Of a DNA stretch of 33,418 bases, positions 25,594 to 29,946 are shown one piece after another. The first letter of the stretch is position 1; the number at the start of each line of letters is the position of its first letter. Both the position numbers and the translations under genes were made by a program. Source of the DNA: Gammaproteobacteria bacterium (GTDB lineage: Bacteria > Pseudomonadota > Gammaproteobacteria > Chromatiales > Chromatiaceae). The DNA lies in NCBI GenBank assembly GCA_011390365.1, contig JAABSM010000044.1, positions 1 to 33,418 of the forward strand, written 5' to 3'. Below the pieces are notes generated by a model. That model was not told the origin of the DNA and made no database searches. It saw only the letters and a program-made list of their open reading frames with translations.

Positions 25594-25742
25594 GAAATCA
25601 CTCCCGACGCAGGCCCCGCGCACGGGGCGAATTCACGACCGAAGAAAAACGCGAAACAGCGATCTGCATCAATGGCATCCCGTCCTCATCAGTGTCATAC
25701 TCTTATCCATACATTGGCAAACATCCCGCACAGGAGAGCATC

Positions 25743-26027
25743 ATGACCGCACCGCCGCCGATCATTGGTTCATGGTATCAGCTGCCGGAGGGCGATCTGT
25801 TCGAGGTTGTCGCATGGGATCCCCAGGAGCAGACCGTCGAAATCCAGTTCTATGACGGCACCATCGACGAGTATGACGTGGAAAGCTGGTCGCAACTGGG
25901 TATCCATCCGGCGGAACCCCCGGAGGACTGGTCCGGCTCGCTGGACGTCGTCTCCGAGGATTACGGGGTCGACCTCGACCGCCCGGCCGGGGATTCGCGC
26001 CACAATCCGCTGGACGACATCGACTAG
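25743..26027 (+). CDS. Small acidic protein, probably DUF6763 family
   Basis: The 94-residue acidic protein begins MTAPPPIIGSWYQLPEGDLFEVVAWD and continues as beta strands (TVEIQFYDGTIDEYDVESW) with an Asp-rich tail. The GSWYQ..G..FEVVA pattern is what I associate with the small gammaproteobacterial DUF6763 family; function unknown. The ATG is preceded by AGGAG. The stop codon TAG lies inside the left arm of the inverted repeat at 26023-26124, so the gene end coincides with the edge of a possible insertion and the original C-terminus may have been changed. Confidence 0.75.
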   Translation: MTAPPPIIGSWYQLPEGDLFEVVAWDPQEQTVEIQFYDGTIDEYDVESWSQLGIHPAEPPEDWSGSLDVVSEDYGVDLDRPAGDSRHNPLDDID

Positions 26028-26300: not shown

Positions 26301-26333
26301 AGCACTGCCAGTCCTTGCAGGACTGGCAGTGCT
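26301..26333. terminator. Perfect 15-bp hairpin between convergent genes
   Basis: Arms AGCACTGCCAGTCCT and AGGACTGGCAGTGCT match perfectly around a TGC loop. It lies between the convergent 94-residue gene and the 1184-residue gene and could act in both directions. No T-tract follows, so a REP-like or boundary element is also possible. Confidence 0.5.
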
Positions 26334-26391: not shown

Positions 26392-29300
26392 CTACCCCTG
26401 ATTGCCGACCTCTCGCACCACCCGTATACCGATAATCGGGATATACTCATCCTTGTCCATGCCGGTGCGCTTGGAGTTGCGCATGCTCTGGGCCGGGCGG
26501 TTATAGGCGCTGCCGCGTACCACCCGCAGCTGGCAGTCCCCTTCGAGCCAGGCGCTGCCGTCTCCAGGCGCGTTGCGGTAGCTGGGATTGTAGCAGTCGG
26601 CGGTCCACTCCATGACGTTGCCGGCGGTATTGAACAGGCCGTAGGGGTTGGGTTTGAAGGTGCCCACCGGCGCCGTCGCCTTGCCATCCCACTTGCTGCT
26701 GCAATTGAAACAATTGGCCCGATTGAGGCCGATACTGCCGCCCCACCAGTAGTCGGTCTTGGTGCCGCCGCGAGCGGCATATTCCCACTCCGCCTCACTT
26801 GGCAGGCGATAGGTCTCGCCGGTCTGCTGGGAGAGCCATTCGCTATAGGCCACCGCGTCGTCGAAATTGACGTTTATCACCGGTCGATCGCCGCGTCCGA
26901 AACCATTGTCGTCGGGAAGCCGGCGCCCCGTCGCCCGGGCGAAGGCGTCGTATTCATCAAAGGTCACCTCGTAGGTTCCCATGTAGAAACTGAGGACCCG
27001 CACATGATGGTGCGGATTCTCTTCCTGCAACCAGGGGTCGCCCAGGTTGCCCATGGTGAATTCACCACCCCGAATGTAGCTGAGGGCGGGCGCCTCGCCT
27101 CCGTCGGCCAGCGCCTCGCGATAGGGGGTTCCGGTCTTCGGTTCGCCGGAACGGTCGACGGTGGCCGGCGCTTCTTCCTGGATCGGCGGCTCATCGGTGG
27201 CCGGGGTGTCGCCATCGCCTTCGGTTCCCGTTTCCGCGCCGGTCGTCGCGACGCCGCCGTCCTCCCCGCCAACCGGTGTATCCGGCTGCTCGGAGGGGGT
27301 ATTCGCCACGGGAGGCGCCTTGGGGCCGCCGCCCTGGGTCATGAACCAGTATCCGCCACCACCGCCAACCGCCGCCAACAACAGCAAGGTCACCACCAGC
27401 CCGGTCCTGGACTTGCGCGGGGCGACGTACTCGTTGCCCTCTTCATCGTAGGTTACCGTGCCGCGGCCCTTTTCGTTTTCAACCTGCTCATGCAGGCGAG
27501 ACAGGGCGTCCTCCACCTGGCGGCGCGCCTCTTCCGCCTCCTGACGGCGAAAATCCGCCTCTTCCGCCTCCACCTGGGCGTCGGTAAGGGCGCGCTTGAG
27601 GTCGTGCAGCTCGCCGGAGCGGCTCTCCAGAAACTCCTTGAGACCGGCGCGCTCGCTCTCGGAGCGCTTGAGCTCCTCCTGCTGCTTTTGCAGCTGCTTC
27701 TGCAGGGCCTCCATGCGCCGCATGGCCTGTTGCTGCTTCTCGGAGCCGGCGCCGCCGCCCCGCTCCTTCTCCGCCTGCTTGCGCGCCTCTTCCAGCTCCC
27801 TTTGCAACTTCTCGACCTGGCCGCCGGCCTTGGCCTCCACCTCCTTGAGCTGACGCCGCGCGGCATCCAGTTCGGTGGCCATGCGCTTGCGCTCCTCCTC
27901 CATGTGGCGGGCGCTCTGCTCGGCCATCGCCTGGGATCCCTTGACCTCCTCCAGCTGGCCCTCCAGCGCCGCCAGGGTGCGCTTGTACTCCTCCTCCTGG
28001 GCGCGTTCATTGCGCTCCCGTTCATCCAGCTCTTTCTGCAAGCGGGCGATGAGATCGCCGGAGCTGTCCAGCTCGCCCTGGCGCTGCTCCCGCTCCTTGG
28101 CGATCTTGTCGATCCCGGACTTGGCGCGATCCCGCTCCATGCGGGCCGCCTCCAGCTGATTGCGCAACTCTTCGGTGCGCCGCCTCGCCTCGGCGTCGCC
28201 CTTGGCGCTGCTCTCCTCGATCTCGCGACTGAGCTTGTCGATGCGCACGCCGCTCGCTTCCAGCACCTTACGGCTGGCGTGCTCCTCTTTCTGCAGCTCG
28301 CTGACCCGCTCGATCGCCTTTTCTTGCGTGGCCTGGGCGGCCTCCAGTTTCTTCTTGAGATCTTCCGACTTGGAGCGCTGGCTCTCGATGTCGTCGAGTC
28401 GATTCAAGGCATCCGAGAGTTCGCTCTCCAGGGTGCCGTGGCGCTCTTCCTGGCGGCTCAACTCCTCGTTAAAGGCAAGCTCGGTTTCGCTGGGTCGATT
28501 CTGCTTGCCCTTCCTGCCGTCGTCACCGGTGAGCAACTTGTCCATGCGTGCCAGGCGCTCACGCATCTGCGCCGCCTCCTCGGCATGGGCGCGGGTGCGT
28601 TCCAGTTCCGTATTCTTGGCTGCCAGACTCTCCTTGAGGCCCATCAGGGTCTCACGCATCTTCTGGCGTTCCTGTTCTCGCACGGCCATCGCTTGTTTTT
28701 CCGACTCCCGTTTCGCCTTTGATCGATCTATGGCCGCCTTGGCCTTCTTCAGTTTGTCGAGGTATTCCTTGGAAGCGGTTTCTGCTTCCGCGAGGCGGCG
28801 CTTGAGCGCCTCGACCTCCGTCCCCGTATCGCCGCCGGATCGCTTCGGTTCCGCCGTCTCCGGCCTGGCCGCCGACGCGCCATCCGCCTTGGCAACGGCC
28901 GCGGGCTTGCCGATACGCTCCTCGGGAATGCCGCCCTCAAGGTAAAATGCGTCGTATCCGCGGTCGATCAAGGCAAAGGCGGCGGCGGCGGCGCGCTTGT
29001 CGCCGCTTTCACAGCAAACGTAGGTCTTGCCGTCGTCAAGCCGCTCGATACGCGAACGAAAGCCATCGAACGGGACATTGATCGCGCCCTCCATGGACCC
29101 CGCCGCGAACTCCTCCGGCGTGCGCACATCCAGCCACACCGCCCCCTCCGTGATCCGCCCCTGGGCATCCTTGAGCTTCATGCCGCTGTTCAGCGGCTTG
29201 TGGACGTAACGCAGGAAATCCTCGCGGGAGAGCCTGACCACGACCCCGTCGGTCAACAGGGAGATGGTGGCGTTACGGGGAAAGCCGGAGAGCAGCGCAT

Positions 29301-29946
29301 CCTCGCCAAAGCGATCCCCGGGGCCGAGGCGATTGACCAGTTTGCCGCCGACGACGACATCCGCCTTGCCCTTGTGCATCAGGTAGTAGAAGTCGCCAAC
29401 CTCCCCTTCCAGGATGATCTTGTCGCCCTTGGCGACCTCCATCTCCTCCATCTTCATCATCACGCCCTGGATGCTGGAGGCGGGCAGGCGCTGAAAGACC
29501 TCGGAGCGCAACAGTTGCGTCATCCAGTCGTCGTCTCCGCCGACTTCGTCGGAGACCTCGTAATCGGTACCACCCCCTACGGAGAGCAGCTTGCTCAGCA
29601 AGTGGTTGTCGACCACCACCACCCGCGCACCCTTCCTGGCCTTGGCCGACATCTTGCGCGGGATATCGTGGGCGATGGGAAAACGCGCGGTGGCGCTGCC
29701 GGCGGCGACACTATCCACATCCTTGTCATCCACCTGAAGGATCAGTTCGCCATCCAGCAGGTAGATATTGTGCGGATCCGTATCACCCTGCCGAAACGCA
29801 TACTCCCCCTTGCCCAGATCGCGGAACTCGGAGCTGTCCTTGAGAGTCGTAAGATCTTCTATCGAAAGGGTATTTAGCGGAACCAGATTCTTCAGCAGTT
29901 CCAGCGGATCCGCCTTCTTCTTATCGTCTTTTGAGAAAAAACCCAT
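26392..29946 (-). CDS. Giant chimera: cNMP-binding x2, rhodanese, coiled coil, TM, FGE-like
   Basis: The product has 1184 residues and no signal peptide. Order: a degenerate cyclic-nucleotide-binding fold (about 20-125, no phosphate cassette). A second, intact-looking one follows (145-250) with phosphate-binding cassette FGEDALLSGFPRNAT (213-227). Next is a rhodanese domain (258-345) with active-site loop CESGDKR (Cys312 to Arg318). Then comes a very long charged coiled coil (about 375-825), one membrane helix (849-867), a Pro/Gly/Asp/Glu-rich linker (870-950), and a formylglycine-generating-enzyme/SUMF-like domain (955-1180) with YIRGGEFTMGN, RLPSEAEWEYAARGG and NPYGLFNTAGNVMEWTADCY. The N-terminal part should be cytosolic and the FGE-like domain periplasmic. 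It may sense a nucleotide inside and bind or modify something outside. It stands alone; its 29946 start has a weak ribosome site. Confidence 0.9.
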   Translation of the reverse strand: MGFFSKDDKKKADPLELLKNLVPLNTLSIEDLTTLKDSSEFRDLGKGEYAFRQGDTDPHNIYLLDGELILQVDDKDVDSVAAGSATARFPIAHDIPRKMSAKARKGARVVVVDNHLLSKLLSVGGGTDYEVSDEVGGDDDWMTQLLRSEVFQRLPASSIQGVMMKMEEMEVAKGDKIILEGEVGDFYYLMHKGKADVVVGGKLVNRLGPGDRFGEDALLSGFPRNATISLLTDGVVVRLSREDFLRYVHKPLNSGMKLKDAQGRITEGAVWLDVRTPEEFAAGSMEGAINVPFDGFRSRIERLDDGKTYVCCESGDKRAAAAAFALIDRGYDAFYLEGGIPEERIGKPAAVAKADGASAARPETAEPKRSGGDTGTEVEALKRRLAEAETASKEYLDKLKKAKAAIDRSKAKRESEKQAMAVREQERQKMRETLMGLKESLAAKNTELERTRAHAEEAAQMRERLARMDKLLTGDDGRKGKQNRPSETELAFNEELSRQEERHGTLESELSDALNRLDDIESQRSKSEDLKKKLEAAQATQEKAIERVSELQKEEHASRKVLEASGVRIDKLSREIEESSAKGDAEARRRTEELRNQLEAARMERDRAKSGIDKIAKEREQRQGELDSSGDLIARLQKELDERERNERAQEEEYKRTLAALEGQLEEVKGSQAMAEQSARHMEEERKRMATELDAARRQLKEVEAKAGGQVEKLQRELEEARKQAEKERGGGAGSEKQQQAMRRMEALQKQLQKQQEELKRSESERAGLKEFLESRSGELHDLKRALTDAQVEAEEADFRRQEAEEARRQVEDALSRLHEQVENEKGRGTVTYDEEGNEYVAPRKSRTGLVVTLLLLAAVGGGGGYWFMTQGGGPKAPPVANTPSEQPDTPVGGEDGGVATTGAETGTEGDGDTPATDEPPIQEEAPATVDRSGEPKTGTPYREALADGGEAPALSYIRGGEFTMGNLGDPWLQEENPHHHVRVLSFYMGTYEVTFDEYDAFARATGRRLPDDNGFGRGDRPVINVNFDDAVAYSEWLSQQTGETYRLPSEAEWEYAARGGTKTDYWWGGSIGLNRANCFNCSSKWDGKATAPVGTFKPNPYGLFNTAGNVMEWTADCYNPSYRNAPGDGSAWLEGDCQLRVVRGSAYNRPAQSMRNSKRTGMDKDEYIPIIGIRVVREVGNQG

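Follow-up and report, generated by a model that had tools for sequence, protein, structure and literature searches.

The regulatory subunit of protein kinase A (PKA) and cGMP-dependent protein kinase both carry two consecutive cyclic nucleoside monophosphate (cNMP)-binding folds, the second with an intact phosphate-binding cassette, joined to a kinase or an inhibitor segment. In bacteria, cyclic AMP (cAMP) is known mostly as the ligand of soluble transcription factors. Domains resembling the formylglycine-generating enzyme (FGE) are known from the aerobic enzyme itself (SUMF1), where a pair of cysteines are the catalytic residues, from PvdO of Pseudomonas, a periplasmic oxidase, and from GldK/PorK of the type 9 secretion ring, lipoproteins without a sensor, rod or membrane helix in which the domain serves as a structural periplasmic part. 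Here, we describe a gene whose product joins a double cNMP head to an FGE-like domain through a rhodanese fold, a long coiled coil and one membrane helix. It lies in the genome of a Gammaproteobacteria bacterium of the Chromatiaceae (assembly GCA_011390365.1, contig JAABSM010000044.1), on a stretch of 33,418 nucleotides that was analyzed as a whole and is called the window below, and forms a single open frame on the minus strand (29946 to 26392, ATG start) encoding 1184 residues. The PKA regulatory subunit and cGMP-dependent protein kinase are the best solved relatives of its N-terminal module (N-module), with one alignment stretch of the latter covering both cNMP folds (residues 26–253), and PvdO is the closest solved relative of its C-terminal domain, although the solved PvdO chain (286 residues) has neither sensor nor rod.

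An earlier note, made from the sequence alone, had proposed this composition and order of domains, and Pfam, heptad and helix maps bear out all parts. The Pfam cNMP_binding model matched with a whole-protein E of 1e-19 (70.7 bits against a curated cut-off of 27.5; two stretches, counted at a 0.1 threshold), Rhodanese matched residues 261–341 (E 1.9e-11, 44.7 bits against 22.2), and FGE-sulfatase matched residues 952–1178 (E 2.5e-53, 181.8 bits against 23.3). The same order, cNMP-cNMP-rhodanese-coil-helix-FGE in one frame, was verified by domain and helix maps in 37 loci, namely 13 (the window, L043, L044, L045, L046, L049, L092, L093, L094, L095, L098, L104, and L123) and a further 24 (L135–L158) that were picked since search rows hinted at fused frames (24/24 were fused) and so give no estimate of frequency. 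Twelve of the 37 genomes belong to the family of the window's genome and 25 to 14 other families of the class. The nearest relative (in genome G001) shares 63% identity and the next (G003) 48%, both over the full length. Together, the fused loci and full-length homologues rule out a fusion artefact. The family is common in the class, with 178 of 369 sampled genomes matching the whole protein or one part at E ≤ 1e-40, while 175 of 211 genomes in the window's family match at E ≤ 1e-30. A sample of the phylum (299 genomes, for which the share outside the class is not given) yielded seven matches at E ≤ 1e-60, all from the same class and including the window's genome. A full-text search of the open-licence literature (titles and the starts of abstracts), covering both this combination of domains and proteins of the FGE-like kind, returned no description of this architecture among the matches listed, and it seems, as the earlier note had supposed, to be undescribed.

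In the head, the site of the second cNMP fold is almost invariant; the Gly-Glu of the cassette (E215) is kept in all 72 aligned N-modules and its Arg (R224) in 70. The alignment confirmed that the FGE..PRNAT motif is present in the second fold only; the first fold of the window's protein, unlike its solved relatives, lacks the Gly-Glu and the cassette, though Pro96-Arg97 is found in 72/72 N-modules. The cassette is nearly invariant also in soluble variants without a membrane helix. Elsewhere in the window's genome, on other contigs (L060:1147-3305 and L061:10457-11512), we found three solo double-cNMP-rhodanese proteins of ~350 residues, two in tandem beside a TsaD-family gene and the third following genes for biotin ligase and type III pantothenate kinase. 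All three retain the cyclic-nucleotide cassette, and solo modules are also present in other families. One homologue (L139:5090-5959, genome G271) has a 290-residue N-terminal extension before the first cNMP fold, with no Pfam match; Arg and Ala abound among the first residues of the extension, and the start may be wrong.

The rod of the window's protein (residues 373–845) shows a heptad signal of period 3.5 (z 11.4; 0/2000 shuffles as high) and contains two prolines in 473 residues, which confirms the ~450 residues of coiled coil first proposed and extends them to ~470. Exactly one helix lies between the rhodanese fold and the FGE-like domain in 37/37 fused proteins, followed by a linker of 49–150 residues, and lysine plus arginine are richer before the helix in 26 of the 37 (10 ties, one opposite). 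These features support the predicted topology, with a cytosolic N-terminus, one pass through the inner membrane, and the C-terminal domain on the far side.

Beyond the fused form, the family includes sensor-coil proteins without the helix, sensor-coil-helix proteins without the FGE-like domain, and coil-helix-FGE proteins without the sensor, mostly of 450–680 residues. Within the window's family, all three kinds of gene (fused, sensor-only, and FGE-only) are repeatedly found in one neighborhood, together with genes for a gamma-glutamyltransferase, an aspartic protease, a ketohexokinase-like kinase (by Pfam), and a protein that we labelled an aldo/keto reductase. In two genomes (G108 and G230), the sensor gene is directly followed by the FGE gene on the same strand, and in a third (G082) one small called frame lies between them; neighboring halves in G017 (L051) were not counted as a natural split, as a frame change may have broken a single gene there. 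From the 37 fused proteins, we built a profile covering the C-terminal end of the rod and the helix, which was used by score given that the consensus was too loose for a motif. It matched 31 of 36 FGE proteins of at least 440 residues without an in-frame sensor (E < 0.01) and 12 of 28 sensor-coil proteins of at least 480 residues near their C-termini (E 8e-5 to 1.5e-22), while the best heptad-preserving decoy reached E 2.7. Given these matches, many single-half proteins look as if they arose from a fused ancestor by fission or truncation. This is compatible with a tree of the FGE part (10 label changes over 77 rows, two of which, L054 and L096, run off their contigs) and with one of the N-module (seven changes for the fused label over 72 rows), with no root inferred for either. 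Separately, we noted a sensor-coil-helix protein (L172:11797-12387) whose stretch from helix to C-terminus (197 residues) has no Pfam match, and whose ectodomain may have been replaced.

In the genomes compared, the presence of the sensor is also associated with nucleotide cyclases. Of 26 genomes with a retained sensor, 22 have a class I adenylate cyclase, compared to 0 of 14 FGE-only genomes (Fisher p 1.3e-7 by genome and 3.4e-4 by genus, relatedness ignored). The four sensor-keeping genomes without it, those of the window (G000), G001, G003, and G230, have 13, 5, 10, and 1 class III cyclase matches, respectively, and the source of the cyclic nucleotide may have been swapped in the window's lineage. 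Class III cyclases average 2.64 in sensor-keeping genomes (25 genomes) and 0.86 in FGE-only genomes (14 genomes; p 0.0024 by genome and 0.022 by genus, relatedness again ignored), with at least one in 10 of the 14. We regard the association of cyclase and sensor as suggestive, with a single co-loss being possible.

Based on the 37 fused loci, the near-invariant cassette, the cyclase pattern, the topology, and the split halves that sometimes remain adjacent on one strand, our leading interpretation, to which we give a probability of roughly 40%, is that the protein is bitopic, crossing the inner membrane once, and that cAMP or cyclic GMP (cGMP) in the cytosol controls a rod-borne periplasmic domain. 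Under this interpretation, cAMP (or cGMP) would bind the second cNMP fold, and the head would then alter its shape or oligomeric state; the coiled-coil rod would transmit that change to the periplasmic domain, or use it for positioning, and the FGE-like domain would act on or hold a partner in the envelope. More tentatively, the family as a whole may be made up of widespread gammaproteobacterial cyclic-nucleotide effectors, in which cAMP or cGMP at the double cNMP-rhodanese head sets the state of the periplasmic domain via a rod of evolvable length, and from which the head was dropped where adenylate cyclase was lost, leaving the anchored ectodomain. If true, this would constitute a post-transcriptional, inside-to-outside output of cAMP through a conserved, rod-linked extracytoplasmic domain. 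The versions that share one gene slot (fused, split, without head, without tail) are natural experiments, which allow the role of each part to be tested directly.

Several observations weigh against such a device. The strongest evidence against an obligate coupling is that the halves can persist alone: in a search of 25 genomes, all at least 98% complete, 11 of 14 FGE-only genomes had no sensor match at E ≤ 1e-15 and three had only distant matches (28–29% identity), while six of seven sensor-only genomes had no match to the FGE part at E ≤ 1e-40, the exception, G157, having one elsewhere. Since either half can survive by itself, the two need not be coupled. The cyclase comparison covers genomes whose loci we examined, rather than a random draw, and on the FGE tree it reduces to a single phylogenetically independent contrast. 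In the window's protein itself, the net charge around the helix is not polarized as expected (−1 before, 0 after), and structure models from two- and three-row alignments were unusable (mean pLDDT, the model's confidence score, 32.3 and 34.7) and were discarded. Of the inside-out signalling or tethering proposed in the earlier note, the topology is supported, as is a cyclic-nucleotide site, here seen to be nearly invariant; obligatory coupling is weakened by the separate halves, although three loci keep the halves adjacent.

An alternative that we consider rather unlikely, yet the best placed of those weighed, is a static tether or scaffold, in which the rod keeps a cytosolic partner at a fixed distance from the membrane, the periplasmic domain acts as an anchor, and the nucleotide contributes little or acts on assembly alone. 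The variability of the rod speaks for it. From rhodanese to helix, the rod ranges more than fourfold among the 37 fused proteins (302–1301 residues, median 898), where a signal-transmitting coil would be expected to hold its length more strictly. Tandem repeats (score ≥ 100 and period ≥ 20 in the program TRF) were found in 22 of 65 genes (14/37 fused, 8/28 sensor-coil), with the best array of each having a period divisible by three (e.g., 102 bases x 5.5 in G011). In 20 genes this array falls within the rod, and in two (L135 and L140) within the linker; TRF found no tandem repeat in the window's gene. The length of the rod thus evidently changes by in-frame duplication, judging from these arrays, as would suit a spacer or tether more than a coil that transmits a signal precisely. 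Against a static tether, the cassette stays nearly invariant even in the soluble variants without a helix, indicating that the ligand site matters on its own.

Clearly less probable is an outside-in sensor, in which the lectin-fold FGE-like domain would bind an envelope or extracellular ligand and signal to the cytosolic module and to two operon partners, a Rieske protein and a kinase resembling ketohexokinase. Among the three genes that follow downstream on the same strand, and with some loci having little or no downstream sequence, the kinase gene occurs in 13/37 fused, 9/29 sensor, and 14/36 FGE loci, and the Rieske gene in 10/37, 9/29, and 0/36, respectively. The kinase and Rieske genes (e.g., L046:12939-14166) form clusters of 38 and 19 loci, respectively. 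The kinase matches solved ketohexokinase (the human enzyme) at E ~1e-72, compared to 5e-13 at best for other PfkB kinases. However, the kinase is not among the three downstream genes in the window or G003, nor is it the single visible gene in G001, and the fact that it accompanies sensor-only as well as FGE-only genes may reflect conservation of the slot, not function. Neither the kinase nor the Rieske gene lies beside the window's gene, and an obligate partnership with ketohexokinase can be ruled out, as the kinase gene is found at 36 of 102 genes within that distance.

The solved relatives of the FGE-like domain, headed by PvdO (5hha, E 1.9e-58) and followed by ToxD and FGE, bring up a further reading, namely that of a periplasmic oxidase akin to PvdO, anchored in the membrane and controlled from the cytosol in its activity or position. 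Four cysteines (1079, 1082, 1118, and 1138) are conserved in 52–54 of 55 sequences and may form disulfides or hold a metal; two are common to PvdO, whereas the CxxC pair 1079/1082 has no PvdO counterpart in the alignment. We consider such an oxidase improbable, as the NCBIfam PvdO equivalog model gave 143 bits, far under its cut-off of 500. The GldK/PorK equivalog cut-off was likewise not reached (104.3 bits against 350); what the window's protein has in common with GldK/PorK is an FGE-like domain. An active FGE is excluded by the missing cysteine pair, despite the shared Pfam domain: the first cysteine of the pair (LCHDSYC in 2q17 and 6muj, with 6s07 also aligned) lies in a short insert without a counterpart in the family, the second faces a non-cysteine column, and no cysteine follows C1138 in any of 13 aligned members. 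The C-terminal domain was rightly described in the earlier note as SUMF/FGE-like. The comparison made there with variable FGE-sulfatase proteins, taken here as products of diversity-generating retroelements, found no support; none of the three RVT_1 places in the window's genome is on the window's contig, and with no reverse transcriptase on that contig, the gene was rejected as a retroelement target.

We also give little credence to loosely linked modules, in which the fusion would be an ancestral juxtaposition with each half doing its own job and gaining little beyond co-expression, a view that draws on the reciprocal loss of halves in one syntenic slot and is countered by the persistence of fused frames in 15 families and by split halves that can remain neighbors.

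The rhodanese fold was initially taken to have an intact C-x5-R loop and to couple sulfur status to the periplasmic domain. While the fold and the string (C312..R318) are literally present, the loop cysteine of the family lies one residue later, a column occupied in the window's protein by Glu313, with cysteines just before it (YVCCESGDKR), and in its congener by Gly, such that "intact" is doubtful. On the alignment, the string in the window's protein is a shifted or decayed loop. Of the 72 N-modules, 52 (33/37 fused, 19/35 other) carry the loop cysteine at its column and 20 do not, including the window's protein and its congener, and for this reason sulfur-status sensing was rejected as a conserved function. 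Because the cysteine is displaced or decayed, a sulfurtransferase or sulfur-sensing role appears doubtful in the window's protein, though most fused relatives keep the cysteine; in this lineage, the rhodanese fold probably serves in structure or binding rather than in sensing sulfur.

Two defense-related comparisons were also considered. A Pycsar TIR or other defense effector was rejected, as PADLOC matches were confined to residues 161–246 within a cNMP fold and no TIR domain was found by Pfam. In the cyanobacterial VMAP/vWA-MoxR conflict systems, the published account describes an FGS domain that is always C-terminal to varied signalling domains (PMC7159879), an arrangement that the window's protein resembles in its FGE-like C-terminus. 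It differs in having one membrane helix, in that the nine window proteins scanned contain no vWA or reverse transcriptase, and in that the defense library matches only its cNMP fold.

Table 1. Features of the sensor-rod-FGE gene in the window (positions in the 33,418-nucleotide stretch).
Feature	Position	Strand	Basis
Complete coding sequence, 1184 residues plus stop	26392..29946	-	Open frame; homologues matching over full length
First cNMP-binding fold, residues 17–133; without the Gly-Glu of the phosphate cassette; Pro96-Arg97	29548..29898	-	Pfam, alignments
Second cNMP-binding fold, residues 146–250	29197..29511	-	Pfam, alignment to solved relatives
Phosphate-binding cassette FGEDALLSGFPRNATI, residues 213–228	29263..29310	-	Alignment of N-modules
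Rhodanese fold, residues 258–342	28921..29175	-	Pfam
Rhodanese loop CESGDKR, residues 312–318; Glu313 at the family's loop-Cys column	28993..29013	-	Alignment of N-modules
Coiled-coil rod, residues 373–845	27412..28830	-	Heptad power
Membrane-proximal rod end, ~residues 720–849; homologous in fused, FGE-only, and some sensor-only relatives	27400..27789	-	Profile
Single transmembrane helix, ~residues 849–870	27337..27402	-	Hydrophobicity, helix maps
Pro/Thr/Gly-rich linker before the FGE-like domain	27124..27336	-	Sequence
FGE/PvdO-like domain, residues 942–1180; conserved Cys 1079, 1082, 1118, 1138; without the FGE cysteine pair	26407..27123	-	Pfam, alignments

The neighbors of the gene in the window include a DUF6763 gene, a TerB-DnaJ protein, an iron-sulfur protein that we labelled GlcF-like, and an AAA ATPase. 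A scan for promoters and terminators gave results at chance level. Opposite the coiled coil, a 572-residue open frame on the other strand (27004-28722) was taken as an effect of composition. Just 3′ of the gene (26301-26333) lies a perfect inverted repeat (14-base arms, 5-base loop), without a T run, which may be a repeat element or a processing signal; its one exact copy among 187 loci is that of the window's own stretch (L001). Further downstream, the DUF6763 protein (25692-26027) belongs to a small family, other members of which are seen close by, with 12 loci of the synteny set having one.

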